A model generated the notes under the pieces. That model saw only the letters and a list, made by a program, of their open reading frames with translations. It did no database searches and was not told the DNA's origin. Made by a program: the position numbers and the translations under genes. A DNA stretch of 46,072 nt, taken from positions 1-46,072 of IMG/VR virus record IMGVR_UViG_3300026097_000038; one strand, given 5' to 3'. Positions within the stretch are counted from its first letter, which is position 1, and each line of letters opens with the position of its first letter. Shown here piece by piece: positions 55-45,135 of this stretch. Origin of the DNA: a virus.

Positions 55-715
55 CGTCATTCTCCGTCAGTGCATCCCAGCTTACCGGGAATAGCTCAAT
101 CATCTTACGATCAATCTGCTGTGCTACCAAGCGAGACTCATACTGTGTGTCTTCCTTAAGACGTAGACGACACATATCCGCAAAGGCATCTAACGACCCT
201 GACCAGTACCATTCCGTCAGCATATTCTGCGGTAGGATCGACCGTGCTTGTTCAGGTGCGACACCTTCCTTAATCATACGATCATAGGTGGTCAGTGCAT
301 TACGACAGGTAGCATGGAATAGCATCTCACTATCAAGACTAATTTCCATCGGCCCCCCTGATCCTTGCTTCTTGTCAGCACTACGGCTCCGCCACTCAGG
401 TTCATAAAGCACAGGTTCATCGTCTACGTACCGACGACTAATCTCATTCCACCGTAGGAACTTATGCTTGACCAACTGACGTGCAACAAACACTGGCGCT
501 TTCACATGGAATGATGCAAAGGCATGACCAAAGGGACTGATGTGCTTGTGACGTGCAAGATACTTAATCAGCTTGATGTCTTTGGTCTTTAGCTTAGGTG
601 GCCCCCACGGGTCATACTCCATCTCAGATTTCTTACCAAAGGACACTCGTGCTGCATTAACGACAGACAGGTCATTGCCCATGTGGTCTACATATGTAGC
701 AATAATGTTTACCAT
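47..715 (-). CDS. thyX: flavin-dependent thymidylate synthase ThyX
   Basis: ThyX makes dTMP from dUMP using methylene-tetrahydrofolate, FAD and NADPH. The 222-residue product has the H-x-S-P-F-x-H stretch near residues 58-64, the signature core N90-E91-x-S93-x-R95-Y96, and a C-terminal stretch ending in LRL-x4-Q-x-E-x-R. The usual R-H-R of the signature is K83-H84-K85 here, and the following Ser of RHR-x2-S is Arg. The ATG at 715 is chosen because it overlaps the upstream stop (ATGGTAA); a TTG 30 bases upstream is less likely. With RNR, MazG and glutaredoxin in region 6, it fits a dNTP supply role. Confidence 0.93.
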   Translation of the reverse strand: MVNIIATYVDHMGNDLSVVNAARVSFGKKSEMEYDPWGPPKLKTKDIKLIKYLARHKHISPFGHAFASFHVKAPVFVARQLVKHKFLRWNEISRRYVDDEPVLYEPEWRSRSADKKQGSGGPMEISLDSEMLFHATCRNALTTYDRMIKEGVAPEQARSILPQNMLTEWYWSGSLDAFADMCRLRLKEDTQYESRLVAQQIDRKMIELFPVSWDALTENDDE

Positions 716-936
716 CTCTTTCTCACTTTCCAGTATGCCCAACAATATAAGCAGTGGTTCTTACCCAAGATCAGGTCTATCAACCACACAATGTTAGGCT
801 TGTTGCATTTCTTCCAGTGCCAATTCCTAGCACTAAAGGTTTGGTTGTTGTCACCACCAAGTATTACATTAAGCAATACCGACAGTGCTGTCAATACTCT
901 AGTAAGGTACTTCACCGTTTTCATCACGGGGGTCAT
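709..936 (-). CDS. small conserved phage protein with N-terminal hydrophobic helix
   Basis: 75 residues. A hydrophobic stretch (about residues 10-26) is followed by NQTFSARNW and a Trp-rich tail with NIVWLIDLILG and HCLYCWAYWKVRK. I recall similar small proteins in other phages with the same TFSAR and W-L-I-D-L blocks; their function is unknown. The ATG at 936 has AAAGGA seven bases upstream. It overlaps the upstream gene by 38 bases and its stop overlaps the thyX start, so the genes are probably translationally coupled. Confidence 0.7.
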   Translation of the reverse strand: MTPVMKTVKYLTRVLTALSVLLNVILGGDNNQTFSARNWHWKKCNKPNIVWLIDLILGKNHCLYCWAYWKVRKRW

Positions 937-1054
937 TGTAGTATCCTTTAGCTAGGTACTTGTTACGATAGTCTGCTACAGCCTCCATTTCCGTTAGGGG
1001 GGTCGCTGGTATCACGCCCATCTCAATCAGTTGTCGTTCAAGTGCTGGTGACAT
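899..1054 (-). CDS. small hypothetical protein
   Basis: 51 residues, MSPALERQLIEMG at the start and a tyrosine-rich C terminus. The ATG at 1054 is chosen because GAGG lies eight bases upstream; in-frame ATG codons at 1084 and 1120 have no Shine-Dalgarno sequence and would run into the hydrolase gene. No recognised domain. Confidence 0.6.
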   Translation of the reverse strand: MSPALERQLIEMGVIPATPLTEMEAVADYRNKYLAKGYYNDPRDENGEVPY

Positions 1055-1064
1055 TGGTTCATCC

Positions 1065-1442
1065 TCATTTGTGTGGTGTGTCATTTGTATAGAATATGTG
1101 ATTACCGATACGTCCGTCAAGTCGATAGTGTTTATTCCAGTAAGGCGACACAGAGACTGTATGGTAGTGTGTAGACGTGATCCCTAAGCCATCCCCACGA
1201 AGTGTAGACTTGGCTATCTGTAGGGCCTTAGAACGGCTCTCAGGGTGCTTCATCTGGTCACTCTTTCCATCGTGGGTGAACGAGAAGGCTTTAGATGCCC
1301 ACACGACATCGCATATGGTATCAGGGTATCTGTCATCCACCATACGGTTGACGACCACCTGTGCTACAGCCATCTGCCCCATAGTTGATTCCCCACGGGC
1401 CTCAAAGTAGATAGCTGTAGCTAGACATAGTAATGGTGTCAT
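1065..1442 (-). CDS. SleB-like cell wall hydrolase
   Basis: 125 residues matching the core of the Hydrolase_2/SleB family. AIYFEARGE at residues 10-18 carries the likely catalytic Glu14, followed by QMAVAQVVVNR, YPDTICDVV and AFSF, which are the family's conserved blocks. SleB-type enzymes cut the glycan strand of peptidoglycan. The N terminus is short and mildly hydrophobic, without a clear signal peptide. The ATG overlaps the upstream stop as ATGA. It lies in the leftward operon with thyX, not with the lysis cassette at 29776-31442, so its role may be in entry or as a second endolysin. Confidence 0.85.
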   Translation of the reverse strand: MTPLLCLATAIYFEARGESTMGQMAVAQVVVNRMVDDRYPDTICDVVWASKAFSFTHDGKSDQMKHPESRSKALQIAKSTLRGDGLGITSTHYHTVSVSPYWNKHYRLDGRIGNHIFYTNDTPHK

Positions 1443-1741
1443 GATTCTACCGTTTCATCTGCTAACTCAGAGTTACGAACAGATTTTATAACATTCTGTA
1501 TTTCTTCCTTTCTTTTCTTTTGTTTTTCCTCCTCAACCTCTTCGTGGTACCTCAAGACTCTATCTACTATAGTTTTCTTTACATCCTCTGGTAAAGCAAG
1601 GGTAAATTTAATCTCCGGTTCTGCTCTATAATTTATCTGGAAATGCGCAATGATTTCGTTAGAGCTGCCATTCCATATATAGAGCGTATTATCGAAACAA
1701 TCTCCATACTTCCAGTCTTTTGGTAGGGGGGTAGGCATCAT
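1439..1741 (-). CDS. hypothetical protein with charged C-terminal coiled coil
   Basis: 100 residues. The N-terminal half is mixed beta-like sequence (YIWNGSSNEIIAHFQINY); residues 65-90 are a Lys/Glu-rich helix (EEVEEEKQKKRKEEIQ). AAAGGA precedes the two adjacent ATG codons at 1741 and 1738. No family recognised. Base usage is more AT-rich than in the neighbouring genes. Confidence 0.6.
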   Translation of the reverse strand: MMPTPLPKDWKYGDCFDNTLYIWNGSSNEIIAHFQINYRAEPEIKFTLALPEDVKKTIVDRVLRYHEEVEEEKQKKRKEEIQNVIKSVRNSELADETVES

Positions 1742-1761
1742 CTAATTCCTTTCTATTTGTT

Positions 1762-1833
1762 CTAGTAATGGGAGACCAGCTTAGGTTCTCTTCCAAACCA
1801 GTGGCTTACATCGTCGTGTGGATCATCAGTCAA
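1762..1833 (-). CDS. possible 23-residue mini-gene
   Basis: A TTG-initiated frame overlaps the end of the upstream gene and encodes MTDDPHDDVSHWFGREPK plus five residues before a stop. It fills a gap that would otherwise be empty in an operon with almost no spacing. The Shine-Dalgarno match (GGTGG) is weak. The composition looks protein-like, but the length makes this uncertain. Confidence 0.25.
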   Translation of the reverse strand: MTDDPHDDVSHWFGREPKLVSHY

Positions 1834-2131
1834 TTTCACCACCCATAGCATAAATGTGACGACCACCAGCCTTGATAGCAATCACACGGTCCAAGCAGAA
1901 GCTCTTGTACTTAGGCTTGTCACCATCAGCACCGACAAACATAGGGATCAGGTTGTGCTTCTTGAGTACTTCTGCTGCCTTACGTCCACGTTCACCACCA
2001 GCAAGATACTTCTTGACGTTAAGGCGTCCGTTGTATGTCCGTTGCTCACCAGCTTTAGTCAAGAATTTGACAGTCATAAACTCGTTGGCGTTCTCTGCGA
2101 GTACCATGCTTACCATGCGTGTGTCTAACAT
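1826..2131 (-). CDS. SH3-like barrel protein, WYL_2-like
   Basis: 101 residues from the ATG at 2131. The stretch FMTVKFLTKAGEQRTYNG followed by YKSFCLDRVIAIKAG resembles small phage proteins annotated as WYL_2/Sm-like SH3 barrels, where a K-x-G-x-x-R hairpin and a terminal F-x-L-D-R-I strand are typical. Such proteins may bind nucleic acid; no role is known here. GGAG lies ten bases before the chosen ATG. A longer TTG-started reading to 2194 has no Shine-Dalgarno support. Confidence 0.6.
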   Translation of the reverse strand: MLDTRMVSMVLAENANEFMTVKFLTKAGEQRTYNGRLNVKKYLAGGERGRKAAEVLKKHNLIPMFVGADGDKPKYKSFCLDRVIAIKAGGRHIYAMGGEID

Positions 2132-2194
2132 TTTTTGTGTTCTCCATGTGTTAGGTTGTGTGTACTGTGTATGTGATTCGTCAGTGCCAGTCAA

Positions 2195-2410
2195 CTAGAT
2201 AATACGAAAGGGTGGCTCCATCGTTTCATCCATAAGATTGTAAACGACAAACATAGTGAAGCCTAGTATCTTACGCTCTGCATCACATTCCTCTAGTAGC
2301 CTCTTACGGGCTACCTCAGCTTCTTCGAGGGTGTAACGTACACCACGATCTAGTTTAACGACACCATGGGTCTTGTGTAGTCCTGCGAGGATGTATGTAC
2401 TATTTTCCAT
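2195..2410 (-). CDS. small hypothetical protein
   Basis: 71 residues from ATG 2410 (MENSTYILAGLHKTHGVVKL). AAAGGA is ten bases upstream, and the start overlaps the end of the preceding gene by 11 bases. The stretch TLEEAEVARKRLLEECDAE looks like one amphipathic helix. No known domain. Confidence 0.6.
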   Translation of the reverse strand: MENSTYILAGLHKTHGVVKLDRGVRYTLEEAEVARKRLLEECDAERKILGFTMFVVYNLMDETMEPPFRII

Positions 2411-2582
2411 TGTAGGGGTATCCTTTGAAGTAGGGGAGACGGGAGATTTCGTAGGTGTATTTGACGGTGCGATGCAGAGGTTCACACGCTCTCTGGTAAC
2501 TCAAGGCACTTTCCTCTGTGTCGAACAAACCTAAGTTGTGAACAAGGTCTATTCCCTTGAGGCTGCGTGTTAGAAGGTACAT
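2400..2582 (-). CDS. small hypothetical protein
   Basis: 60 residues from ATG 2582, which has an AGGAG six bases upstream; a GTG at 2600 is the weaker alternative. It contains FDTEESALSYQRACEPLHR, a pattern shared by many short phage proteins in which a beta hairpin is followed by a helix. Function unknown. Confidence 0.6.
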   Translation of the reverse strand: MYLLTRSLKGIDLVHNLGLFDTEESALSYQRACEPLHRTVKYTYEISRLPYFKGYPYNGK

Positions 2583-2596
2583 GTCAGGCTCCTGTT

Positions 2597-2848
2597 TCAC
2601 TGCGTAGCTGTGCTACTATTATTTCCATTGGGGGCTACCTTAGCCTTAAACTCTTCATAGAAGATTCGGGATACTGCGTCAATGCTTTCGTCAAGCTCAT
2701 CAAACTCACCTTTGAGGTCGAGCATGTAGTATGCCGCAAGACCATTCATAAAGTCTGACTTATCGTCGATGTTATGGCCTTTCTCTGCCAGTGCGACGGC
2801 ATAGATGTTACCAAGCTCTTTGAGCATTTGTAGTTGATCGTTTGTCAT
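2597..2848 (-). CDS. small acidic hypothetical protein
   Basis: 83 residues, largely helical, acidic in the middle (LKGEFDELDESIDA). The start overlaps the upstream stop as TAATG with GAGG in front. No recognised family. Confidence 0.6.
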   Translation of the reverse strand: MTNDQLQMLKELGNIYAVALAEKGHNIDDKSDFMNGLAAYYMLDLKGEFDELDESIDAVSRIFYEEFKAKVAPNGNNSSTATQ

Positions 2849-3054
2849 TATCCCTCTTCCCTCGTGTGTATCTCAACAATCTTCATCGTCATACCTATGT
2901 GGCTGCGAGCGAGTTTTTCTGCCATACGTGCTGCGCCCGTGTGCGTAGGATACACGCAAGAGATTGTCTCATACGTTTGCCACATAGCCTTGCGCCTGTT
3001 CCATGTTACAGGGGGGCGGAAGTCATGCTCTTTCGTTGTGATAATGTAACGCAT
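2848..3054 (-). CDS. small hypothetical protein
   Basis: 68 residues from ATG 3054 (MRYIITTKEHDFRPPVTWNR). AAGGAG lies nine bases upstream across a run of C residues. Basic N-terminal half; C-terminal strand GMTMKIVEIHTREEG. Function unknown. Confidence 0.6.
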   Translation of the reverse strand: MRYIITTKEHDFRPPVTWNRRKAMWQTYETISCVYPTHTGAARMAEKLARSHIGMTMKIVEIHTREEG

Positions 3055-3067
3055 CAGGGGGGTCTCC

Positions 3068-3253
3068 TTAAAACTTAGGTTGGTCAATGTAGGCTTTAGC
3101 AGCCTCGACAGTGTTGAAGGTCTCACGGTAGATGTGACCAAGGTATACGTCATAAACTGTACGAGTGTCAAACTCAATGCTGCGGATTTTGTATCCGTTG
3201 TAGGTAAAATTCTGTGGGTTAATCAAGAAGCCCATTTCATCTCGTGCTGACAT
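3068..3253 (-). CDS. small hypothetical protein, first gene of the leftward operon
   Basis: 61 residues from ATG 3253, which has AAGGAG seven bases upstream; the ATG at 3259 sits too close to that site. FNTVEAAKAYID near the end is a helix motif seen in several small phage proteins. As the promoter-proximal gene beside the repeat hub it is probably expressed early (inference). Confidence 0.6.
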   Translation of the reverse strand: MSARDEMGFLINPQNFTYNGYKIRSIEFDTRTVYDVYLGHIYRETFNTVEAAKAYIDQPKF

Positions 3254-3290
3254 TGTCATTCTCCTTATTTCGAGGTCAAATCTTGACCGA

Positions 3291-3417
3291 TTTTCCACTG
3301 CGGGGTTAATTTAGAATCACCCTACTAATTTCCACTGCGGGGGTCAATCTCTAATTTCCACTGCGGGGGGTCTTAATTTCCACTGGGGGGTGTTCCTTAT
3401 TTCCACTGGGGGGGTCA
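3291..3417 (+). repeat. five direct repeats of TTTCCACTG followed by a G run
   Basis: Copies begin near 3291, 3327, 3353, 3375 and 3399. The consensus is ATTTCCACTG(C)GGGGG(G)TC. The last four are 22-26 bases apart. The G run varies from four to seven. On the other strand, the direction of leftward transcription, they read GACCCCC-GCAGTGGAAAT. Confidence 0.85.
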
Positions 3418-3428
3418 ACCGATGTGTT

Positions 3429-3440
3429 ATGTTATAACAT
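3429..3440. promoter_or_regulatory. 12-bp perfect palindrome ATGTTATAACAT
   Basis: A perfect dyad lies between the G-run repeats and the TATCTTTCGATA array. It could be an operator for a dimeric regulator; no partner is identified. Confidence 0.4.
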
Positions 3441-3471
3441 CACAATGTTCCCGATTCGTTCCGCTTTTGCG

Positions 3472-3710
3472 TCAAAAGATAGTGTCAATAGTATCTTTCG
3501 ATACGAATCGGTATCTTTCGATAGCGTGAGGTATCTTTCGATAGGTCAATAGTATCTTTCGATAAATTGAGTGTCTTTCGATTTTACGCAACGTAACGCT
3601 TGACGAATCGTTCAGAATATTGCAGACGAATCGCTAAAATCAAAAGATAGCGTCAAGTGTGCAAAAGATAGAATCTTGTATCTTTCGATAGCGACAAATA
3701 TCTTTCGATA
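3472..3710. repeat. phased iteron-like array of TATCTTTCGATA
   Basis: Direct copies of (G)TATCTTTCGATA start at 3491, 3511, 3531, 3552 and 3571 (the last degenerate), then at 3678 and 3698. Steps are 20, 20, 21, 19 and 20 bases, close to two helical turns, so all copies face the same side of the DNA. Three inverted copies of the core (CAAAAGATAG) lie at 3473, 3641 and 3662. Each unit has a TATC/GATA dyad. This fits an iteron-type binding array for a phage or host protein. Confidence 0.85.
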
Positions 3711-3833
3711 GTCATGGTTGACTCCCTTGTGAATCTATTGCAGCGCCGACCGATTCGGCTTTGCTTGTGATTCGACCCTACGAAAATCGAGTCTCTGTAC
3801 GTCAAGAGTAAAATTGCGTTTTAACGACAAATA

Positions 3834-3870
3834 GAACAAATTAGAACAAGACGGGAACAAGTGCGGAACC
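3834..3870 (+). repeat. GAACA repeats at 10-11 base steps
   Basis: GAACAA occurs at 3834, 3844 and 3855, and GAACC at 3866. The spacing of one helical turn is regular in an AT-rich stretch. It may be a protein-binding run; evidence is limited to the spacing. Confidence 0.4.
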
Positions 3871-4000
3871 TGATTTTTCATGACCTAAACCCTACCAAAA
3901 CAAGAGTCGGCCTTGTACGGGCCGTTTTGAGGGGTCTACGGCGATTTAAGGTTTTTTGCGTTTTGTGCTTGTGTGGATTCCCTATTATTGATATTGATTC

Positions 4001-4032
4001 CCTATCGGCCCCGCTTGGGGCGCTAACATAGG
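4001..4032 (+). promoter_or_regulatory. hairpin that could cover the ribosome binding site of the 4043 gene
   Basis: CCTAT at 4001-4005 can pair with ATAGG at 4028-4032, enclosing a GCCCC (4008-4012) and GGGGC (4017-4021) stem with a GCTT loop. The AGG of the outer stem is part of the only Shine-Dalgarno-like stretch before ATG 4043. Folding would therefore reduce initiation. No T tract follows, so it is not a standard terminator. Confidence 0.4.
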
Positions 4033-4042
4033 AAAAGACAAA

Positions 4043-4255
4043 ATGACCAAATATAAATACGCCGCACCCGTTATAACGACAAAATCGGACGTAAAAGCAA
4101 TGGTTGCAGCATTGGAAAAAATGCCCAAGGCGGATGTAAATTGGTCCCAAACGGGTGTTGTAGTTAAAGCGCCAAACGGCAAAGAGGTTCTGCGAGCAAT
4201 GGTTGGCCGTGACGGTTCTTATCTTGTTCGCCATTTAGAGGATTTGTTCCAATGA
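4043..4255 (+). CDS. small hypothetical protein of the accessory module
   Basis: 70 residues (MTKYKYAAPVITTKSDVKAM). A helix with VKAMVAALEKMPKAD is followed by a beta-like segment VVVKAPNGKEVLRAMVGRDGSYLVRHLEDLF. First of four overlapping plus-strand genes whose codon choice (many ACG, GCG and CGG codons) differs from the structural genes, hinting at a separate origin. Function unknown. Confidence 0.65.
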   Translation: MTKYKYAAPVITTKSDVKAMVAALEKMPKADVNWSQTGVVVKAPNGKEVLRAMVGRDGSYLVRHLEDLFQ

Positions 4256-4410
4256 AAATCGGCCTATTCAGCAAAATCACACTGTTCGCATACTTCGGGA
4301 TTTTCTGCTTTTACGCTGGAAAATTCACGTATCTTGACGGTGACGGGTACGGGGTTTTTATCCCGCACGTTGGCGGATATCACGTCTCAACACTTAAGGA
4401 GTCAAACTAA
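4252..4410 (+). CDS. small single-pass membrane protein
   Basis: 52 residues starting MKIGLFSKITLFAYFGIFCF, with one membrane segment over about residues 5-22 and a polar Gly-rich tail. The start overlaps the upstream stop as ATGA and its TAA overlaps the next start as TAATG, so it is embedded in a coupled cluster. This supports it being real despite its size. Function unknown. Confidence 0.6.
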   Translation: MKIGLFSKITLFAYFGIFCFYAGKFTYLDGDGYGVFIPHVGGYHVSTLKESN

Positions 4411-5288
4411 TGCTTATCAAATCTCTTGCAAATATCGCTAACGATTCAAACGCCTTGCGTGATCACTACAATTCGCAATTCTGGAAAACCGTCCGCAAAC
4501 AAGCGGAGTCAAAACTTGCCAATGCGACCCGCACGGACGGGACTCTGATTTGGGATAAATTGCCAAATATTTTTAGCACGAGTCCCAAACTCGAAAAGAA
4601 TCCCGACGGCCAAGAATATTTAGCCAATGCTTTTTACGGTGCACCATCATTTGCGAGTCTTTTCAACACTTGCGCACGTGCAACGTTTGGTTGCGGCACT
4701 AATTGCCTAAACGAGTCGGGCCACGGGCAATTACATATGGTGAATAAAGGCGTCCATTCGGTGCACGTTGCACGCATGACTCGCACGTTAATTTGGTTTA
4801 AATACCGTGATCAATTCAAAGTAAAAGCTCAACGTGAAATTAGGGCGCTTAAACGTAAAGCGGATCGTATCGGCGTACCGTTGGCAATTCGTCCAAACGG
4901 AACAACGGATTTGCGGTTTGAGAAACTGTGGCCAGAATTATTTGCCGACAATGCGGACGTGCAATTTTGGGACTATACAAAAGATATGTCCCGCAACGTG
5001 GATACAATCCCGAATTATTCACTGTGCTACTCTGTGCACGAAAATACAACGGACGCCGATATCGAAAAGGCGTTTGCTAACGGTATGAATTGCGTGGTCG
5101 TTGGACGCCTTAAGCGGACGGACGCTAAGCCCGCAACGTACCTAGGTCGACCCGTTGTCGACGGTGATAAGCATGATTTGCGGTTCCTAGACCCAAAAGG
5201 CGCCTTTGTTATGCTATTTGCAAAAGGTAACGCCTACGGTGACACAACGGGATTTGTGCGTGATGTAGCAGAGCTGGAGTCGGTATGA
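4410..5288 (+). CDS. conserved phage protein with a Cys cluster, function unknown
   Basis: 292 residues. Conserved-looking blocks are C88-x6-C95-x3-C99 followed by LNESGHG, then HVARMTRTLIWF, AIRPNGTTDLRFEKL, DVQFWDYTK, PNYSLCYSVHEN and VVDGDKHDLRFLDPKG. I recall this pattern from a family spread through marine phages and actinobacteriophages; no activity is established. The three cysteines might bind a metal or an Fe-S cluster, and the order of strands and helices recalls a TIM-like barrel; both are inference. AAGGAG lies eight bases before the ATG. Confidence 0.7.
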   Translation: MLIKSLANIANDSNALRDHYNSQFWKTVRKQAESKLANATRTDGTLIWDKLPNIFSTSPKLEKNPDGQEYLANAFYGAPSFASLFNTCARATFGCGTNCLNESGHGQLHMVNKGVHSVHVARMTRTLIWFKYRDQFKVKAQREIRALKRKADRIGVPLAIRPNGTTDLRFEKLWPELFADNADVQFWDYTKDMSRNVDTIPNYSLCYSVHENTTDADIEKAFANGMNCVVVGRLKRTDAKPATYLGRPVVDGDKHDLRFLDPKGAFVMLFAKGNAYGDTTGFVRDVAELESV

Positions 5289-5470
5289 TGAATATGACGT
5301 TTGCGCAATTCTTAAGAATACAAACTGCAGCGGGTGGCGTGGGTGCAAGCCAAGTGCAATTCATTAGAGCGGCGCATGGCGTCTTAAGTAAGCTAGGCAA
5401 GAGTCCAGAGTATAGGACTCAACGTCACGCATGGCTAAGGCAAGGACTCTATTGGCACGAGCGATTCTAA
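5285..5470 (+). CDS. small basic hypothetical protein
   Basis: 61 residues, starts within the stop of the previous gene (ATGATGA). The C-terminal part (RTQRHAWLRQGLYWHERF) is basic and aromatic. Its 3' end lies in a duplicated segment: 5435-5456 recurs with few changes at 5477-5498. Function unknown. Confidence 0.55.
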   Translation: MMNMTFAQFLRIQTAAGGVGASQVQFIRAAHGVLSKLGKSPEYRTQRHAWLRQGLYWHERF

Positions 5471-5498
5471 GGCGCTCTAAGGCGGGGACTCTAGTGGC
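5435..5498 (+). repeat. imperfect 22-base direct repeat at the end of the accessory module
   Basis: CTAAGGC-x2-GGACTCTA-x-TGGC occurs at 5435-5456 and 5477-5498, 42 bases apart. The first copy is inside the 5285-5470 gene and the second is just past its stop. It may mark a duplication or recombination joint. Confidence 0.55.
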
Positions 5499-5565
5499 TA
5501 GGCTAGGGCAACCGCCTAAGTGTTCTAATGGGCTTGTAAGGCGCTTATATCGAGTGTGACGAAAG

Positions 5566-5603
5566 TAGTTTAACGGTTGAACCATAATAGTTTAACGGTT
5601 AAA
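5566..5603. promoter_or_regulatory. repeated TAGTTTAACGGTT operator-like sites
   Basis: TAGTTTAACGGTT lies at 5566-5578 and 5588-5600, 22 bases apart. The second forms TTTAAC-G-GTTAAA (5591-5603), an inverted repeat about one base. The spacing of two helical turns suggests a bound dimer pair; the protein is unknown. Confidence 0.45.
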
Positions 5604-5788
5604 TTATATTTGTTATGTCGTGGAATAGCGCCAGTTTAAGACAAGCGAATCAAGTGTGGTGGGCAGGCGCAGCTAGCTTCCTCGTCAAGAATTTTCTTTT
5701 GTTTTGCCTCAGTTTTATTACAAGTGTTGCACAAATGTCACATAATCTAACGGTTCGATCACGTTTTGTTACAGTTTGACATTAGCTA

Positions 5789-5816
5789 TTGACATTTGGG
5801 GCCCCCCAGATTATAC
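5789..5816 (+). promoter_or_regulatory. possible host sigma-70 promoter
   Basis: TTGACA at 5789-5794 is followed after 16 bases by TTATAC at 5811-5816. The spacer contains GGGGCCCC. It would transcribe towards the structural genes. Judged by consensus only. Confidence 0.3.
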
Positions 5817-6017
5817 GCAGGTGATTCGGTGTGGGTGGGTATCCACCTATGAATCCAAAACAAGAATTTACTTTCGCCCCACCATGTCAGAACGTGTCTT
5901 ACCCACCAATGTGTTGTACAAATGTCACACACGCTAGAAATAACGACAATCAGGACAAACTTTCTTTACTTAGTTTTCAATAGGTTGTACGATTCTTAGA
6001 AAAAAGTTGCATTTTCT

Positions 6018-6052
6018 CTGCATAAGATTCGGAAAAATGTTCCTATAGTATA
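6018..6052 (+). promoter_or_regulatory. P1: putative phage promoter for the structural operon
   Basis: 35 bases that match 34 of 35 positions with P2 (39304-39270, opposite strand) and share the core AAATGTTCCTATA with P3 (44550-44521). The upstream block is ATAAGATTCG and the downstream block CCTATAG, followed by TATAAT at 6049-6054. Each copy precedes a transcription unit and points into it. It may be read by the phage sigma-like factor at 44554-45135 (inference). Confidence 0.75.
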
Positions 6053-6065
6053 ATGAGAGAGGTTG

Positions 6066-6217
6066 CTACTTAAGTTTTAACTTACGTTATTTCCACTAAG
6101 TAGTATAACTAGTAGAGTATGAGACTTACGTTATAACTTAAGTTACACTCCTAGTTGTTGTATCTCTAAGTACTTCCTACAAGTAACCAAGACGTATGCT
6201 TCCAAACTTAAGTTAAG
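6066..6217 (+). promoter_or_regulatory. leader with repeated TAACTTAAGTTA palindromes
   Basis: The perfect 12-bp palindrome TAACTTAAGTTA is at 6134-6145. Related sites are TACTTAAGTT (about 6067-6076), TAACTTACGTTA (6078-6089), ACTTACGTTAT (6124-6134) and AACTTAAGTT (6206-6215). A similar site, AACTTAAGTAAC, lies in the P3 leader near 44500-44511. All are just downstream of a phage promoter element, so they may be operators or leader RNA structures. Confidence 0.55.
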
Positions 6218-6324
6218 GGTAAATGGTCTTGCTGAAAACTTGATGGGATAGAATCTGCGCTACCCACACAAGTATTATCCTTATTTGTCGTTATAAAGCC
6301 CGTAGGGCGAGGAACTGTCGTATC

Positions 6325-6726
6325 ATGGCTGACCCACTTCCATATTGCAAGCATGTAGAAAAGCACATCTTGACTTGTATCCAAGGTGGTATCTCCATTC
6401 GTCAGATGCTGTCGTCTATGCAGCACTTAGCTAATGCTCCCCGTTCTTTGTCCACCATGTATAAAATCTATGGGTCGTTCATGGAGATGGAACGAGCGAA
6501 GATCAATGGTGCTGTCGGTAAGAAGGTCATTGACCAAGCTCTAGAGGGAGACTTCAAATCCCAAGAGTTGTTCCTTCGTTCTAAAGGTGGTTGGTCGCCT
6601 ACACAGACTAACATTGAAGTTGAACAAGATACTGACCCTGACCTTGACGAGAGTGCAGCCGATACCCTACTAGGACTGCTAGGAATGAACCCGAATGACC
6701 CACCCGAAGAGAAAGATAACGGCTGA
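6325..6726 (+). CDS. terS: probable terminase small subunit
   Basis: 133 residues directly upstream of, and overlapping, the large terminase gene. Mostly helical, with a likely DNA-binding N terminus (GGISIRQMLSSMQ-x-LANAPRSLSTMYK) and the stretch ALEGDFKSQELFLRSKGGW, which resembles small terminases that have an N-terminal helix-turn-helix and a C-terminal portal- or TerL-contacting tail. The identification rests on position and general pattern. Its leader from P1 is about 270 bases. Confidence 0.7.
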   Translation: MADPLPYCKHVEKHILTCIQGGISIRQMLSSMQHLANAPRSLSTMYKIYGSFMEMERAKINGAVGKKVIDQALEGDFKSQELFLRSKGGWSPTQTNIEVEQDTDPDLDESAADTLLGLLGMNPNDPPEEKDNG

Positions 6727-8080
6727 CACCTTACGTGATCTGCCACCAGCTAAAGTAAAAGAACTGTTTGATGCTCTAGGACCACAGAAGGTAGAGGAGC
6801 TTAAGCATGACTGGAACTTCTGGGCTAGGGACAACCAGCTAGAGCCTGACTCTAAAGACTGGAACACATGGTTCATCAATGCTGGTCGTGGATTTGGTAA
6901 AACTAGGTCAGGTGTTGAGTGGGTACGAGAGAATGTCAAGCGTGGTGTCAAGCGTATTGCTGCTGTCGCTTCTACCAACTCAGATATTGAACGGGTTATG
7001 GTCAAGGGTGAATCTGGTTTCCTCTCTGTTTGCTGGAAGGGTGATAAGACTTACGCTGGTAAGAAGATGGGGTTCCCTGAGTGGTCGCCCACTAAACGTA
7101 CACTCACATGGGAGAATGGAGCGCAAGTACAGTTCTTCTCCGCTGAGGAACCTGAACGTCTCCGTGGTCCACAGTTTGAATTAGCTTGGTGTGATGAGAC
7201 TGCTGCATGGAACAAGGATGTAGACACTTGGGCTATGTTGCAGTTCTGTATGCGTCTGGGGAAGCACCCACGTATTATGGTTACGACCACACCTAAGCCT
7301 ACCAAGCTCATTCGTCAGATACTTAAAGACCCTAAGACTGTCGTAACGACAGGTACTACATTTGATAATGCTGCTAACCTTGCAGGTACATACCTTACTG
7401 CTGTTAAGGAACAATACGAAGGTACTAGACTAGGTAGGCAAGAACTTTATGCTGAGGTACTAGAGGAAGCGCAAGGCGCACTTTGGACTACAGCTATGTT
7501 GGATGAAGCCGCTGTTAAGCATGAGGCTGTCCCTGATCTTTCCCGTATTGTCGTTGCACTTGACCCTGCTGTTACCTCTAATGCTGAGAGTGACATGACA
7601 GGGATTGTTGTCGCTGGTATTGATGTGAACGGAGTAGCCTACGTCTTAGGTGATTACACTGACAGGTTGTCACCACAGGGTTGGGCATCTAAGGCTATTG
7701 AGCTTTACCACCAGTACCAAGCTGACCGTATTGTCGCTGAGGTAAACCAAGGTGGTGACATGGTTAAGACAACCATTCATGGTGAAGATGAGACAGTCCC
7801 CTATAAGGCTGTACGAGCTTCTCGTGGTAAGTTTGCTCGTGCTGAACCTATCTCAGCTTTATACGAACGTAACCTAGTTAAGCATGTGTCTAATCCCCCT
7901 GATGGGGCAACACTAAACGAATTAGAAACCCAAATGAGAACGTGGGAGCCACTAGGGTCGATTGGTTCCCCAGATAGACTTGATGCCCTTGTATGGGCTA
8001 TTACAGACCTCTCACTCAACGGATACAGTAAACCCAAACTGACCCTCGCTTACTCAAGTGCTAAGGGACTTTCACGCTAA
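6695..8080 (+). CDS. terL: terminase large subunit
   Basis: 461 residues, normal length. N-terminal ATPase: Walker A GRGFGKT at 64-70, Walker B FELAWCDE near 180, and a coupling TTTPKP motif. C-terminal RNase H-like nuclease: VVALDPAV, then VAEVNQGGD, then SPDRLDALVWA supply the acidic residues. It drives DNA into the prohead and cuts concatemers. The start overlaps the small subunit gene by 32 bases. Confidence 0.95.
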   Translation: MTHPKRKITADTLRDLPPAKVKELFDALGPQKVEELKHDWNFWARDNQLEPDSKDWNTWFINAGRGFGKTRSGVEWVRENVKRGVKRIAAVASTNSDIERVMVKGESGFLSVCWKGDKTYAGKKMGFPEWSPTKRTLTWENGAQVQFFSAEEPERLRGPQFELAWCDETAAWNKDVDTWAMLQFCMRLGKHPRIMVTTTPKPTKLIRQILKDPKTVVTTGTTFDNAANLAGTYLTAVKEQYEGTRLGRQELYAEVLEEAQGALWTTAMLDEAAVKHEAVPDLSRIVVALDPAVTSNAESDMTGIVVAGIDVNGVAYVLGDYTDRLSPQGWASKAIELYHQYQADRIVAEVNQGGDMVKTTIHGEDETVPYKAVRASRGKFARAEPISALYERNLVKHVSNPPDGATLNELETQMRTWEPLGSIGSPDRLDALVWAITDLSLNGYSKPKLTLAYSSAKGLSR

Positions 8081-38673: not shown

Positions 38674-39216
38674 TTATCCTACCATAAACAGTTCGTCATC
38701 TGCACTAGATGAGTTTTCTTCCCACGCCACATGGTCGGTTACACCAATGGCAATCAATCGGACACCAGCACCATTTGAGTACGTCTCAAACTGTACCTTA
38801 GCCTTAGTACCATTACCTAGTGTACCATCGTCCTCAAACGACCACCAAGCCTTGTTCTCAGCCCCGTTAGTCAGGTTGACAACCTTTGGTGCGCCACCGA
38901 AGTCTACCTCAGTCGGGTTACCTCGCTTGTCGGTGAAGGTCATAACGTGATCGTGCATACGGGTCAGCTTGATGTACTTACCAATGCCAAAGTCGCTACC
39001 TTGTTTAACACGGTCATTGCCCATTGGCTTAGGGTCCATGCCGCCTTCTAGCAACTCTGTGATTTGATCTTCGCTAGTGAAGTAAGCATTGACAACGTAT
39101 TGTCCGTTGTGTCGTGCTGCTTTCTTAGCTGCATTGTTTTGGTCGCCACCCATATCACGGTTCTCTTCAAATACCTTTGCGTACTCAAGAACCATATCCA
39201 TTGTGTGTTTAGCCAT
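38674..39216 (-). CDS. probable single-stranded DNA-binding protein
   Basis: 180 residues. A beta-rich core (YIKLTRMHDHVMTFTDKRGN, GNGTKAKVQFETYSNGAGVR) suggests an OB fold. The acidic end ADDELFMVG recalls the acidic tail that T7 gp2.5 uses to contact polymerase and helicase. Gene order (polymerase, SSB, exonuclease, endonuclease) supports this. Promoter P2 lies just upstream. Confidence 0.62.
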   Translation of the reverse strand: MAKHTMDMVLEYAKVFEENRDMGGDQNNAAKKAARHNGQYVVNAYFTSEDQITELLEGGMDPKPMGNDRVKQGSDFGIGKYIKLTRMHDHVMTFTDKRGNPTEVDFGGAPKVVNLTNGAENKAWWSFEDDGTLGNGTKAKVQFETYSNGAGVRLIAIGVTDHVAWEENSSSADDELFMVG

Positions 39217-39269: not shown

Positions 39270-39304
39270 TATACTATAGGAACATTTTTTCGAATCTTAT
39301 GCAG
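39270..39304 (-). promoter_or_regulatory. P2: putative phage promoter for the nucleotide metabolism operon
   Basis: Read on the minus strand, it matches P1 at 34 of 35 positions, with AAATGTTCCTATAGTATA at its downstream end. It lies between the PolA stop and the SSB start, 54 bases upstream of that gene. No other promoter-like sequence was noticed in this gap. Confidence 0.75.
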
Positions 39305-39327: not shown

Positions 39328-41172
39328 TTAGTGAATATCAGCATAAGTGTTGCCGAATTGCACATCTGTCCCTAGTGGTACGTTTAGGTTAATCTCATGG
39401 TTCACGTTGTTGATCCCCATAGACATAATGTTCTCTACCTTATCTTCGTCGCCCTCCTTTGTTAGAACAATGATCTCATCGTGGAATTGACCTATGGTCT
39501 CTAAGCCCATGCCACGACACTCCATAACCCACTTGTCAAAGCAGTAGACCCCTGTACTTTGATTAAGGGTACTAAAGCGGTCTTTCTCACTGCGTAGGCT
39601 ATGCCAGAAGCCTGACACGGGGTTCTGTAGCCACATGGAGCCAAAGAGTTCCCGTGTCTTTAACCTAGAGGCTACCTTCTCAATGGCCCAGTTACGTGAC
39701 CAGAAGGCATCCAGCAGGGTCTTAGCCTCACGTTGGTTCATGCCTGTCTCACGGGCTAGTTTAGCGGCTCCTACACCATACGTAGCACTGTAGTTGACCA
39801 CCTTGTAGTTCTTACGCAGAGCCTTGAGTGATCGTTCACCTGAATTGTGCTTGTCAATGTCATCCTGTGTGACGACACCAGCGTGTTTAGCCAAGTCCAA
39901 GTGTGGGTCAAACCCCTCCTTACTCATTTCCTCTACATAGTCAGGGTCTAACGGTTTCATGTAGTGACGCTTGGTTGTATCCTCTAGTGAGGTCATATCA
40001 GCACCAGCTAGAGTGTAACCATCAGGACACGTAAGGCACCCACGGATCACATCACCATAAGGTTTGTCTACAGATGGTAGATTGACCAGAGGCTTCATGT
40101 GCTTGAACCTGAACGTATTCGTAAGACCTGCTACAGTAGCCTGTAGATAACCGTCTACATGACTGTCTATAAAACTCCTGAGAATACCAGCACGATGAGT
40201 GAGGACGGTAAGGCCATCAAGAAGATCAACAGCAGGATCGCTGGCAGCAAGTTCACGAACACTCTCACACAATTCACTATCTTTCCTAACTTGTTCAAGT
40301 CGTCGTTCCTCTCCAGTTTTCTTGTCACGCAAGAACTTATATGTACGAGGCTTCCACCCCAATGAATACAACCAGTCTTTTACTTGGTCGTTACTGTTTG
40401 GGTTTCCCCGTTCTGTACCTGTCACCACGACCAAACTCTGCGTAGTCTCAGGCATCTTCTGCTCTTTACACAAGGCAACCCATCGTTCACCATGTGACGA
40501 CAGAGAGCCATCTTTCTTGTACATAACCTTCGGTTTGTGACGGGTAGCAGCAAGCACTCGCTTAGGCATAGCATCCGCTAGTTGCTCTACCTTCTCAGAC
40601 TTAAGTGCCATGATTTCGTCGTAGGCTGCTTGTGCTTTATCTACGTCTAGCTTCCACCGCAGGGTTTCTTGCTCCTTGGCGCAGTCCAACTTGAACGACA
40701 GATAGTCCACCAGCTTTGCCTTGTCAGCAGGGTCTTGGTACAATTTGTTCAACTTGATGTCCAAGTCACGCCATAGACGTGCGTTAATCTTAACGTCCTC
40801 ATCGCACCTGTGAGCGTATTCCTCTGGTGTCAGGCTGTCCCAGTCCTTAATGACAGGCTTAGGCACTCCATAGTCCTCTCCGTAGCCCTCAAGGCCATGC
40901 TTGGGTCGATCATGGTTGAGATACCAAGACAGAGCCAAGGTGTCTATCAGACGTGCCTCTACCTTGATACCTAGCACACGTTCCACTGCGGGTATGTCAA
41001 ACCGAATTATGTTGTGACCTACGAGTGTATCGGCCTCAGTGAAGAAGATACGCATAGCCTCATAGTCATACGTGTGGTGTACGTTTCCGTCTGTACCCAT
41101 CCACGACAAGACATGAATCTTGGTCAACTCATCTAATAGACCGTCAGTTTCAATGTCGAATACTGTTGTCAT
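39328..41172 (-). CDS. polA: family A DNA polymerase, T7-like
   Basis: 614 residues. 3'-5' exonuclease residues D6 and E8 (FDIETDG) and D126; polymerase motif A GADMTSLED (D392), motif B R453-x3-K457-x3-Y461-x3-YG, and motif C H564-D-E566. No 5' nuclease domain; that activity is in a separate gene. Tyr occupies the 762-equivalent position. Replicates the phage genome with the primase-helicase. Confidence 0.95.
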   Translation of the reverse strand: MTTVFDIETDGLLDELTKIHVLSWMGTDGNVHHTYDYEAMRIFFTEADTLVGHNIIRFDIPAVERVLGIKVEARLIDTLALSWYLNHDRPKHGLEGYGEDYGVPKPVIKDWDSLTPEEYAHRCDEDVKINARLWRDLDIKLNKLYQDPADKAKLVDYLSFKLDCAKEQETLRWKLDVDKAQAAYDEIMALKSEKVEQLADAMPKRVLAATRHKPKVMYKKDGSLSSHGERWVALCKEQKMPETTQSLVVVTGTERGNPNSNDQVKDWLYSLGWKPRTYKFLRDKKTGEERRLEQVRKDSELCESVRELAASDPAVDLLDGLTVLTHRAGILRSFIDSHVDGYLQATVAGLTNTFRFKHMKPLVNLPSVDKPYGDVIRGCLTCPDGYTLAGADMTSLEDTTKRHYMKPLDPDYVEEMSKEGFDPHLDLAKHAGVVTQDDIDKHNSGERSLKALRKNYKVVNYSATYGVGAAKLARETGMNQREAKTLLDAFWSRNWAIEKVASRLKTRELFGSMWLQNPVSGFWHSLRSEKDRFSTLNQSTGVYCFDKWVMECRGMGLETIGQFHDEIIVLTKEGDEDKVENIMSMGINNVNHEINLNVPLGTDVQFGNTYADIH

Positions 41173-41415: not shown

Positions 41416-42978
41416 TTACATTACCTCGCTTAGTGTAAATGTTTCAGTGTTAAACCGCATCATACCTGCATTACCTTCCTCAGAGCATGGGCGGTTCTTC
41501 TCAATAGACAAGTAGGTAGTGTTACGTTCCTGTAGGTCATCAGCTTCCTTGTCACGCTTAAGGTCAATGATAACTGATGCACGTTGTCCAATCATACGAC
41601 AATACTTCATCTGACCATCATCATTAGTGTGGGCAATAGTAACAATACCTACGTTCAACTCAGCAGACAGCTTAGACAGACGAACTGACAGGTCAGCCAA
41701 CATCTGTTCTTTGCTTTCCTCTGACGACCCCACAAGAACATCTTGGATAGGTTCAAAGAACACAAACTTAACACCACAAGCCACAGCAAAGTAACGTATC
41801 TGGTCGATCAGATCGTCAGCACCTTGACCATCACTCAGGTAAAACTGATAGAAGTTCTCTTTCTCCGTCAGCTTACCAATGGCTTCTACCACTTGATCTT
41901 CAGCACCTTTCTCTTCGATCAGGTCACGTCTGGTCAGATTGTCGTTACACTCGTAAGACACAAGCCCTAGCAGAGACCGTAGCTTAGTTTCTTCCAAGTG
42001 CCATGCGGCGATAGGTACATCCTTCTGTAGCATGTTGTACTCTAAGAACCGCATGATCTCAGTCTTACCAATACCTGTCGGTGCCTTAATCACTGTGAAG
42101 TGACCTTGCATGAGACCTAAGATTTTGTCGTCTAGTGCTTCAATGCCAGTCTTAACATACTGATGCTCAGGCGTATCCTTGTACAACGACAAGAAGTCCT
42201 GTGTGCTGTTCATCACGTTCTCAGGTGTAAACTTACGTGCGTTCCACCATGCACTCTTGAAGTCAGCAGCTTTACCAGCCTGTAGGAACTCGTTAGCATC
42301 TTTGTATGGACGGTGGTCCACACGGTAGACTTTGTTAGGGAACAACTTAGCCACACGATCAGCAAGAGCATTACCAGCTTCGTCGTTATCTACTGACAGT
42401 ACGATCTTCTCAAAGCTATTGAGCCAGTCCGCACAGTTCTCCCAGAGCTTCTTAGAGGGCGTAGCAGACGGTAGAGACACGACTGGGTTAGTGTACCCAC
42501 TCTTGAGCATCTGTGCCACTGACAGGGCGTCTAGTTCACCCTCAGTGATTGTTACCATCTTAGAACTACCAGCAGTGAACAGGTTCATACCAAAGAGTTC
42601 GTCACCCTTGAACCCATTCTTGGCGTAAAAGCCTTTTTCTGACAGCTTACGTACCTTAATTCCACCGCTAGGGTACACGTACTCCTGACGGTCAGCGTAT
42701 GTATATACACCGAAGTCTTCCATCGTCTTGGTGTTGATGCCACGCATGTTGACATATTCACCATCTGATACATCTTCGATCAGCTTTGGTGTAAACGACA
42801 TATAATCGTCGCCTCCTTTTGTTGGGTATTTCTCCTTGGCCCAAGCGAATGTATTTCCACTGGACGGGTAGCCTTGGTTACAGGCGTGACACTTACCAAA
42901 GCCCTCAGTGTTGTAACTGAAGGCATCGGAAGAGCCACACGATTGATAAGGGCAGGGTTGGTGTGCGTGTTCAGCCAT
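41416..42978 (-). CDS. primase-helicase, T7 gp4-like
   Basis: 520 residues from ATG 42978, which overlaps the upstream stop as TAATG. Zinc finger C9-x4-C14...C30-x2-C33; Toprim acidic residues E146, D197 and D199; RecA-like helicase with Walker A APTGIGKT (299-306), Walker B FVFFEPIQD and IVTIAHT. It unwinds DNA and lays primers. The C-x4-C finger is wider than the C-x2-C of T7. Confidence 0.93.
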   Translation of the reverse strand: MAEHAHQPCPYQSCGSSDAFSYNTEGFGKCHACNQGYPSSGNTFAWAKEKYPTKGGDDYMSFTPKLIEDVSDGEYVNMRGINTKTMEDFGVYTYADRQEYVYPSGGIKVRKLSEKGFYAKNGFKGDELFGMNLFTAGSSKMVTITEGELDALSVAQMLKSGYTNPVVSLPSATPSKKLWENCADWLNSFEKIVLSVDNDEAGNALADRVAKLFPNKVYRVDHRPYKDANEFLQAGKAADFKSAWWNARKFTPENVMNSTQDFLSLYKDTPEHQYVKTGIEALDDKILGLMQGHFTVIKAPTGIGKTEIMRFLEYNMLQKDVPIAAWHLEETKLRSLLGLVSYECNDNLTRRDLIEEKGAEDQVVEAIGKLTEKENFYQFYLSDGQGADDLIDQIRYFAVACGVKFVFFEPIQDVLVGSSEESKEQMLADLSVRLSKLSAELNVGIVTIAHTNDDGQMKYCRMIGQRASVIIDLKRDKEADDLQERNTTYLSIEKNRPCSEEGNAGMMRFNTETFTLSEVM

Positions 42979-43637
42979 TAACCAAGACCTGCAATGACCA
43001 ACCAATTATTACGATAGGCAAACATATTACCGACCAACAACTTTGGGTTTGACTTAAACCTGTTCTTGATCTTCCAGAAGTCCGTTTTACTCGTGGGGGT
43101 AATGTAGTCGTATACCTCTTGGTTGAGATACTTGATCTTATGTTGACTGCTGCCCAGCTTAAACTTTAGCCTTGGTGTGTACTTAAACGTCTTGCTACCT
43201 GCCCTCTTCTTTACGATCTCCCTTGCCTTATTACGCTCTAGATAAAACTCTGGGCTGTCCTCTGGTTGCACGACAGCAAGAGACAACCTACGTGCGTTTG
43301 CTTCTTTGATGGACGAAACAACAGGTATCTGACCTACAAGACCACTCCAGTCATTCAACATCCGCTTTACCTCAAACCTAGAGTTGATGTTGTGATGTAC
43401 GTCAACACCACGATCACCAGCAATCTTCCAGCTTTCATGTCGGCTGTCCTTGTGGTTCCGCTCTAGCTTAACCTGAGACACAGAGAAATTGGGTGGGGCA
43501 TTTTCCACTGCGAGGGGGTAGATGCGAATTAGCTGTCGTAGCTCTGGTGACCACCCTGCACTGCATACAGTCATGCGTCCCTGACGATCCATCTCTGGGG
43601 CTGTCTTGCCCAACATTACGAAATCTTCCAAGATCAT
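42978..43637 (-). CDS. conserved phage protein of unknown function
   Basis: 219 residues. MTVCSAGWSPELRQLIRIYP, VKLERNHKDSRHESWKI and YTPRLKFKLG are strongly patterned and look conserved; I recall related unknown proteins in other phages and bacteria. No catalytic residues can be assigned. It sits between the DUF4326 and primase-helicase genes, suggesting a link to replication or DNA handling. Confidence 0.6.
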   Translation of the reverse strand: MILEDFVMLGKTAPEMDRQGRMTVCSAGWSPELRQLIRIYPLAVENAPPNFSVSQVKLERNHKDSRHESWKIAGDRGVDVHHNINSRFEVKRMLNDWSGLVGQIPVVSSIKEANARRLSLAVVQPEDSPEFYLERNKAREIVKKRAGSKTFKYTPRLKFKLGSSQHKIKYLNQEVYDYITPTSKTDFWKIKNRFKSNPKLLVGNMFAYRNNWLVIAGLG

Positions 43638-44428
43638 TTGTTTGCCTCCTTTGTCTTCTTCATCAAGATGTCACCATGACAACCGTCAGGACAACACCAA
43701 CATACAAGCAGCTTGCCAGATAGCTCACCAGACTTGAGGCGATGGATAAGACCGTCTTTCATCTCAAGGTACTTGCTGTACTTCTCAATGACAGTCTCAC
43801 GATCACCATCCTCACCGATAACGAAAGGGTTACCCCAGTCAGTACCACGGGTAATCTTCACATCAAGACCTTCAGCTTCCGCCCAGCACAACAAAGCGTT
43901 GTCAACGGGTAAACCATCGTCACCTTTGCTCAAGTTAGCTAATGCTACACCACCTTTTTCAATAGTGCGGCGGCGATCCATCTGGGTCTGTGTCCAACCT
44001 TGCGACAAGAAAGACCTAACTTCCTTGACACGCTGACGAAGGCGTTCTTTTGAATAGCTATGTTTCTCAACCTCATCCAGTAACTTTTCCTGTTCTTCCC
44101 TTGGTAAAGGCTGTACTTCCATGTGATGACCGAAACTCGATGTATGCCGCCGGCGGCACACTTCAAACTCTGTGCAGACAGACCCACGGCTCCTCAAGGT
44201 ACTAGCAGAAGGTCCATCCCAGTCAGGTGAGTTTACCTTGTCAGCACGCTCTCCGTATGCTTGACCACTATTCCACCAGTCTCCCCAGTCCCATGCGCTT
44301 TGACTATCACGCTTCTTTAACTCTTCGCCCTCCTCTACCCACTTGTCGTAATCCGTAGAGTTCTTTCTGCCGTCATCCAACACAACAGGTTGGCGACCAT
44401 CCAGATTAATGCGTTCTTCAAGACCCAT
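43634..44428 (-). CDS. DUF4326 protein with ParB-like helical N-terminal domain
   Basis: 264 residues. Residues 190-255 (RGTDWGNPFVIGEDGDRETV, ELSGKLLVCWCCPDGCHGDI) match DUF4326, an unassigned phage and bacterial family with a Cys/His cluster. Residues 45-138 contain WDWGDWWNSGQAYGER and FEVCRRRHTSSFGHHMEVQ with PLPREEQ-x2-LL, which resembles a helix-turn-helix segment of ParB-like or plasmid regulators. The combination is unusual. Promoter P3 lies upstream, and AAAGGA precedes the ATG. Confidence 0.7.
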   Translation of the reverse strand: MGLEERINLDGRQPVVLDDGRKNSTDYDKWVEEGEELKKRDSQSAWDWGDWWNSGQAYGERADKVNSPDWDGPSASTLRSRGSVCTEFEVCRRRHTSSFGHHMEVQPLPREEQEKLLDEVEKHSYSKERLRQRVKEVRSFLSQGWTQTQMDRRRTIEKGGVALANLSKGDDGLPVDNALLCWAEAEGLDVKITRGTDWGNPFVIGEDGDRETVIEKYSKYLEMKDGLIHRLKSGELSGKLLVCWCCPDGCHGDILMKKTKEANK

Positions 44429-44553
44429 AGTCTATCCTTTCGTTTAACTTATGTTTATTAACTATTAGTAGTGAACACGATAGTCAATACTATAGTTACA
44501 ACTTAAGTAACTCCTACACTTGCTTATAGGAACATTTATTCGGTTCTTATTCA
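44429..44553 (-). other. P3 leader between sigma-like and DUF4326 genes
   Basis: AT-rich leader of about 90 bases from P3 to the DUF4326 ATG. It contains AACTTAAGTAAC near 44500-44511, related to the palindromes behind P1, and TTGACT near 44483 that could be a weak host promoter. Confidence 0.45.
44521..44550 (-). promoter_or_regulatory. P3: putative phage promoter for the replication operon
   Basis: Minus-strand reading aligns with P1 and P2 without gaps: 22 of 30 positions match P1, and the core AAATGTTCCTATA is identical. It is four bases past the sigma-like gene's stop and directs transcription into DUF4326, primase-helicase and PolA. Confidence 0.7.
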
Positions 44554-45135
44554 TCACGAATTGTTACACAACTCAGTCTCCAGCTTATGCAAGGCAGACG
44601 TTTCTGTACGTGATACCCAAGTTTGGTGATACCCAAGCCTCTCCGCTACCTCATCTTGTGTCATGTCTTCGTAGTAACGTAAGTTGATTATGCTCAACTC
44701 TGTAGGAGATAGTGTCTCTAATACAACACCCTTGACGTAGGTATAGTACTCTTTGTCCTCATACGCTGCTACATGGTCAAAGTCAGACATACCAAAGTCT
44801 TCGTCGTAGGCTACATTAGATGACGACAAAACTGACTTGAGCCAATCATACCCTTGTTCAGACATATCACCTGAATTGTCGTCCTCAATGTTACGTGTAA
44901 GCCTACGTGATCGACTATGGTTAGGTATAGTCACAGGTTGTGTGTCTAGGTTAAGGTAGTCGTGCATACGCCTCTTAGCCTCACGAAAGAGCTTCGCTGG
45001 GTGGGCCTCTGGTTCCTCTGCTAGTATCTCATAGCAGGTCAGTATGCCCTCCATCTTAAGGTCTTCCTTGTGTGATACACTGTTGTATTTATACGCCAGT
45101 CTATCACACATAGTTATAATTTCGTCGTTAGTCAT
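44554..45135 (-). CDS. sigma-70-like transcription factor
   Basis: 193 residues. Residues 141-186 are a clear region 4: TLSPTELSIINLRYYEDMTQ, then DEVAERLGYHQTWVSRTE, a helix-turn-helix that reads promoter DNA. Residues 11-60 (LAYKYN...SHKEDLKMEGILTCYEIL) resemble region 2, and 55-80 (RRMHDYL, VTIPNHSRSRR) a short region 3. Shorter than host sigma-70 and about the size of alternative factors. GAGGAG precedes the ATG. It probably directs host RNA polymerase to phage promoters. Confidence 0.82.
   Translation of the reverse strand: MTNDEIITMCDRLAYKYNSVSHKEDLKMEGILTCYEILAEEPEAHPAKLFREAKRRMHDYLNLDTQPVTIPNHSRSRRLTRNIEDDNSGDMSEQGYDWLKSVLSSSNVAYDEDFGMSDFDHVAAYEDKEYYTYVKGVVLETLSPTELSIINLRYYEDMTQDEVAERLGYHQTWVSRTETSALHKLETELCNNS

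Follow-up and report, generated by a model that had tools for sequence, protein, structure and literature searches.

The window, i.e., the whole stretch of DNA analyzed here (46,072 bp), is an IMG/VR virus record whose nearest isolate is Roseobacter phage CRP-6. It carries three copies of a repeated element (P1, P2, and P3), which are listed with the genes around them in Table 1. P1 and P2 read CTGCATAAGATTCG[G/A]AAAAATGTTCCTATAGTATA and P3 (ATAAGAACCGAATAAATGTTCCTATAAGCA) has the same spacing, in agreement with the first-pass annotation, which had described a repeat with shared order and spacing and identity at 34 of 35 positions between P1 and P2. The 13-mer AAATGTTCCTATA occurs exactly three times on both strands of the 46,072 bp, and no other 13-mer is shared by at least three sites lying more than 2 kb apart; none of the 30 dinucleotide shuffles gave such a 13-mer. 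Distant sites of the window share exact repeats of up to 20 nt, the longest in 10 shuffles being 15-17 nt. No fourth copy was found in the window (the next best match to the 26-mer joint consensus has seven mismatches), and an Rfam search of the window gave no match. The earlier statement that each copy lies between genes and points into a unit also held at all three sites: P1 is oriented into the terminase/structural operon, P2 into the gene after polA, and P3 into the DUF4326/primase-helicase unit. With the sequences of relatives as a guide for its division into parts, the element reads as a putative bipartite promoter, composed of an 8-base -35-like block, about 17 nt of spacing, and a TATAGT-like -10 that is preceded by a conserved word, ATGTTCC. 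The upstream half of P3 begins only 2 bp past the stop codon of a sigma-like gene.

Table 1 The repeated element and neighboring genes in the window (promoter roles are predicted)
Feature	Position	Strand	Remarks
P1 (site C), putative late promoter	6018-6052 (promoter parts 6020..6049)	+	upstream of terminase/structural operon
P1 parts	6020-6027; 6037-6043; 6044-6049	+	-35-like GCATAAGA; -10-proximal ATGTTCC; -10-like TATAGT
Probable terminase small subunit	6325..6726	+	first gene after P1; position-based, small subunit itself without PHROG match
TerL	6695-8080	+	after small subunit; followed by portal, major head protein, and tail genes
First gene after P2 (180 aa)	38674..39216	-	kept after polA in relatives; without family match
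P2 (site B), putative promoter	39304-39270 (parts 39273..39302)	-	between polA and gene 38674-39216
P2 parts	39302-39295; 39278-39273	-	-35-like GCATAAGA; -10-like TATAGT
Family A DNA polymerase (polA)	39328..41172	-	upstream of P2; phrog_17, 3.5e-107
Primase/helicase	41416..43005	-	in unit downstream of P3; phrog_239, 1.8e-100
DUF4326 protein	43634..44428	-	first gene after P3; family match 4.6e-21
P3 (site A), putative promoter	44550-44521 (parts 44523..44552)	-	directly after sigma-like gene
P3 parts	44552-44545; 44528-44523	-	-35-like GAATAAGA; -10-like TATAAG
Sigma-70-family protein (193 aa)	44554..45135	-	sigma2-like N-terminus and sigma4 C-terminus; Pfam, PHROG, Foldseek
Recognition-helix segment, sigma region 4.2	44587..44631	-	residues 169-183, YHQTWVSRTETSALH; residues co-varying with -35 word

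Several other sequence features of the window were observed. Palindromes of the ACTTAAGTT type (42 matches with at most one mismatch in the window vs 17 expected) cluster in the leaders after P1 (6067-6214) and P3 (44446-44508), and similar words recur in the leaders of relatives; they may serve as operators or as processing sites. Upstream of the early operon, the intergenic control region contains seven copies of GTATCTTTCGAT (3484-3711, mostly about 20 bp apart), possibly an origin or a regulator array, and five copies of TTTCCACTGSGGGGG (3288-3418), one of which reads TTGACC-N17-TAGGGT on the minus strand. The latter repeats are candidate early promoters, and a comparable family of repeats lies close to the end of CRP-6. 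A scan of positions 1-7000 with the sigma-70 consensus gave no more matches than shuffled sequences, and no copy of the P1/P2/P3 element was found before the early operon in the window. Four small ORFs (17693-18181, 23715-24212, 31451-31819, and 32457-32870) show HNH-type motifs by eye (VDHI.., NHIDG.., and VDHIDGN..) and possibly encode homing endonucleases, no family search having been made. At the ends of the window (1 and 46072), the minus-strand operon seems to leave one end and resume at the other, which points to a map that is circular or circularly permuted, though the record is classed as linear; no terminal repeat was found at the window ends.

The gene adjoining P3, which was overlooked in the first-pass annotation, encodes the probable reader of the element, its binding to core RNA polymerase and its role in initiation being inferred in the absence of binding or transcription data. 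Its product matches Sigma70_r4 of Pfam (PF04545) at 2.8e-12, above the cut-off, as well as PHROG 351 (sigma factor), and Sigma70_r4 was found in all 13 family members examined. The match to Sigma70_r2 (PF04542) is weak, being detected in 10 of 13 diverse family members with a best value of 3.6e-4, and the one score given is below the Pfam curated cut-off; the N-terminal half thus looks like sigma region 2 only with this qualification. The AlphaFold model of the protein has a mean pLDDT of 73 and a pTM of 0.37, and statements are therefore restricted to the domain level. When the whole chain of this model was searched by Foldseek, the best PDB matches were sigma factors (SigB, sigma32, FliA, and the ECF sigma SigL). 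The variable helix residues align with SQMHVSR (GLSQMHVSR) in the region 4 helix-turn-helix of SigB (8x6g). BLASTP produced no alignment between the window region 4 and a fragment of Escherichia coli sigma-70 (an approximate sequence), and residues were therefore mapped on SigB rather than on sigma-70.

Relatives were collected by scanning IMG/VR with the window sigma protein, its CRP-6 homologue, and two family alignments. A total of about 110 distinct relative loci, plus CRP-6, have the sigma gene followed by the element. A plain 14-mer scan of IMG/VR was of no use (at least 120 matches, mostly by chance). No bacterial or archaeal member was detected in 84,980 species genomes at the sensitivity used, and the sigma family was found only in phages. 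Among cultured phages, only CRP-6 was found to align along the N-terminal half of the window sigma; the homologue is gp14 (family HMM, 3.9e-47, CRP-6 being among the sequences behind this HMM). The family HMM found no member in SIO1, P12053L, or CRP-4, and since these Cobavirus relatives have no RNA polymerase either, they must use something else.

Three sites were compared among the relatives. At site A, after the sigma gene, the element is present in nearly all of the about 110 relatives whose sequence reaches past the gene. At site B, between polA and the next gene (about 50 related records), and at site C, upstream of the terminase small subunit gene, it is usually present where the contig reaches. 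Orthologues of site C were found in CRP-6, G002, G003, G004, G011, G012, G015, L264, L151, L159, and L168. Absence of the element from the same gaps in close relatives would have refuted the promoter reading; it is present there, namely after the sigma gene in L126-L132, after polA in L127-L132, and before the terminase small subunit gene in G011, G012, and L264. Each lineage has its own element word, usually common to its sites. CRP-6 carries GTTGACT-N-GACGTCATA at sites A, B, and C, with GACGTCATA occurring exactly three times in 44.9 kb; G002 has a GTTACAA-N-TGTGGCCCTAT element (TGTGGCCCTAT[A/C], three copies within one mismatch in 37.6 kb); and G003 and G004 have CT[T/G]ATA-N-AGGTGCCTA, ending in [T/A], at the same three sites. 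It follows that the location of the element is conserved and its sequence is not. The proposal of a phage-specific promoter class is thus strongly supported by elements at orthologous gaps in close relatives; in more distant ones these gaps carry a different word, shared within each genome. Some records fit less well. G001 (L184/L185), a 32-kb fragment, has a sigma homologue of 69% identity, but only site A was found and site C was undetected, and homologues of the terminase, portal, and head proteins of the window were not found in it; module exchange or a fragmentary record are possible alternatives. In G014, L234, and L258-263, the -35 of site A agrees poorly with that of site B or C.

There is strong comparative evidence, as far as aligned sequences can tell, that the -35 word follows the recognition helix of the sigma across lineages. 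The helix [N/S]KMWVSR pairs with GTTACA; NQK/NQR/HQKWVSR and NQRLISR with GTCTAA; HQS/HQTWVSR with GCATAA; NQVWVYR with GTATAA; and NQTWVFR with GAATAA. In other lineages, SQPAIVLRE is found with CTTATA or CTGATA, SQQGIDQRE with TTGTTAAA, KSAISKRE-like helices with GGAAAC, RQAISL[R/K]E with CTTGCG, and KQAVAQF of CRP-6 with TTGACT.

Site A adjoins the sigma4 coding sequence, and a fair test of this relationship is therefore provided by site B, which lies 4-6 kb away, and site C, which lies in a divergent operon. Among 44 non-redundant genomes, the -35 identity between a genome's own site A and its own site B or C was 0.83 (49 comparisons) vs 0.53 between genomes, and the identity of the -10-proximal word was 0.985 vs 0.60. 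The -10 anchors were picked using words seen in the data, and the -35 never entered that choice. A partial Mantel analysis of site B (33 genomes), with the sigma N-domain and the neighboring protein as controls, gave r=0.37 (P=0.0005) between helix and -35; the N-domain did not explain the -35 (r=0.07, P=0.16). The N-domain was correlated with the -10-proximal word (r=0.34, P=0.002), and the helix segment correlates with this word too. These P values are inflated by relatedness, and kinship is not fully removed by the tests. With close relatives excluded, the genome with the nearest helix predicted the site B -35 at an identity of 0.67-0.71 vs an expected 0.51; the genome with the nearest N-domain or neighboring protein predicted it less well (0.55-0.60). 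On a background tree of the neighboring protein, the -35 class required 18 changes, the helix class 21, and the joint label also 21; since the joint label equals the helix class, no -35 change needs a separate event.

Two natural swaps were found between closely related genomes. G004 and G005 share 93-100% identity over most of 7 kb, and they diverge most in the region-4 coding sequence (62-74% identity) and at two -35 boxes, that of site A and, within a stretch of about 20 bp, that of site B, whose flanks are almost letter-identical. L159 and L151 show the same -35 difference within near-identical flanks at site C. In the one apparent counter-example, L147, the helix is of the beta type and site B of the alpha type. 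It is 99-100% identical to the beta phage L151 up to +1674 (past the sigma stop codon) and 98-100% identical to the alpha genome G003 beyond, and it is therefore considered chimeric or recombinant. An alignment gap of roughly 600 bp was seen at the junction.

These swaps bear on the view that agreement at site A merely reflects physical linkage and that agreement at sites B and C reflects whole-genome kinship. It is true that only tens of bp separate site A from the sigma4 coding sequence, and closely related contigs share everything; this would not account for sites as remote as B and C, for matched genomes that differ at the -35 within otherwise near-identical flanks, or for distant genomes with the same helix (L129, L212, G002, and G010) that share the -35, and we regard such an origin as very improbable. 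Chance similarity among ordinary host sigma-70 promoters is just as improbable. The 17-18 nt spacing and the TATAGT-type -10 are sigma-70-like, and the CRP-6 -35 is TTGACT, but the -35 of most lineages (GTTACA, GTCTAA, GCATAA, GGAAAC, TTGTTA, and CTTGCG) is unlike TTGACA, and a switch of the -35 together with the phage helix in near-identical genomes is not required by a host sigma.

It is somewhat easier to imagine, though still unlikely by a wide margin, that the phage protein binds the elements to activate or repress transcription and is not a sigma factor. A helix-turn-helix protein without core binding could also co-vary with its site, and the region-2 match of the N-terminus is weak. However, a -10 and the -35 of the site are separated by a fixed distance typical of promoters, a sigma2-like and a sigma4 domain are both present in the protein, its whole chain is aligned to sigma factors by Foldseek, and the -10-proximal word co-varies with the N-domain. 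The idea that the elements are promoters for a single-subunit RNA polymerase of the T7 kind, encoded by the phage, can be virtually dismissed. CCTATAG/CTATAG superficially resembles the T7 family, and CRP-7, another RCA phage, encodes such an enzyme (PMC6918029). Nevertheless, the elements vary in two blocks spaced like -35 and -10 that track the sigma domains, and no T7-type RNA polymerase gene was found in the window, whose long proteins are tape measure, fibre, RNR, polA, terminase, portal, and head proteins (the record is possibly incomplete). The earlier remark that no gene for a single-subunit enzyme was found thereby held for all proteins of sufficient length.

We therefore return to the sigma factor, and consider it very likely that P1, P2, and P3 form a small regulon of host core RNA polymerase and the phage sigma, for which no transcript-end, binding, or transcription data exist. 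The sequences by themselves show that the elements exist and are conserved at the same three sites, that the protein belongs to the sigma family, and that the helix co-varies with the -35 and the N-domain with the -10-proximal word. In the proposed scheme, a host sigma would transcribe the early minus-strand operon, of which the phage sigma gene is the last gene. The phage-sigma holoenzyme, whose core binding is inferred, would then open P3 (site A) for replication (primase/helicase and polA), P2 (site B) for recombination and nucleotide metabolism, and P1 (site C) for packaging and structure, a temporal order that is likewise inferred. Region 4 of the sigma would read the GCATAAGA-type -35 box, and the sigma2-like domain at the N-terminus would, probably together with the linker, read the -10 and the preceding ATGTTCC; transcription is inferred to start about 6-8 nt after the -10. 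A more tentative suggestion, about which we remain slightly more doubtful than convinced, is that specificity is a polymorphic lock-and-key trait, in which region 4 and all -35 boxes are inherited together and change as a set between near-identical phages that co-occur. Rival phages or anti-sigma defences of the host possibly exert a diversifying selection that drives such switching.

It is already known that some phages encode a sigma with promoters of its own. SPO1 gp28/gp34 and T4 gp55 resemble sigma factors and redirect the RNA polymerase of the host to middle and late genes; unlike the window phage, SPO1 and T4 are large myoviruses whose promoters are numerous. ECF and group 3 bacterial sigmas (SigB, SigF, FliA, and SigL) have sigma2 and sigma4 and read the -35 with the region 4.2 helix, as is inferred for the window protein with its sigma4 and weakly matched sigma2-like domain, and sigmas of these types are its best matches in both fold and sequence. 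Closer in function is the sigma of Salmonella phage 7-11 (SaPh711_gp47), whose late promoters are bipartite (GTAAtg-16-aCTA) (PMC8948821). Similar to the proposed system, it is a phage sigma with region 4 that redirects the host core to bipartite promoters before late genes, and divergent clusters are found in both; 7-11 differs in having eight promoters vs three in the window. When a phage collection was searched by tblastn with the window sigma (E<=0.1), none of the 47 records listed was named Salmonella 7-11 or phiEco32. The sigma of phiEco32 (gp36) also serves middle and late promoters, but it shows no homology to region 4, and its promoters have only one element, tAATGTAtA (PMC8948821), whereas the window family conserves both -35 and -10 blocks. 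Promoter positions match between 7-11 and phiEco32 and their sequences differ, only these two specificities having been compared (PMC8948821). A sigma regulon of the 7-11/phiEco32 type would be expected to have a shared element before middle and late operons and promoter sequences that track the phage sigma between related phages, and both are seen here; early transcription from host sigma-70 promoters, also expected of this type, is a prediction, the consensus scan having given no excess over shuffles. Comparative evidence that the window system is a putative dedicated phage sigma regulon is thus strong, without biochemical data. CRP-6 is alike in its gp14 sigma homologue and its three elements at the same sites, and differs in that gp14 is annotated as "hypothetical protein"; the words "sigma" and "promoter" do not occur in the text of the CRP-6 paper (PMC6918029). 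What appears to be new is the sigma family itself and its repeated concerted specificity switching, for which no description was found in the literature searched.

Phages of the CRP-6 type occur widely in the ocean (PMC6918029), and given the absence of a phage RNA polymerase from the window and the annotation of CRP-6, the timing of their genes had lacked an explanation; a phage sigma regulon offers a specific and testable answer. Moreover, the relatives form a natural series of many joint changes in specificity of one regulator and its complete set of targets, only three in number. In the matched genome pairs, little else differs near the sites, which makes rewiring with all targets changing at once directly testable. 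If the lock-and-key reading is true, the helix/-35 pairs would be a natural readable code between helix residues and -35 words. These pairs could help in the design of orthogonal sigma-promoter pairs.
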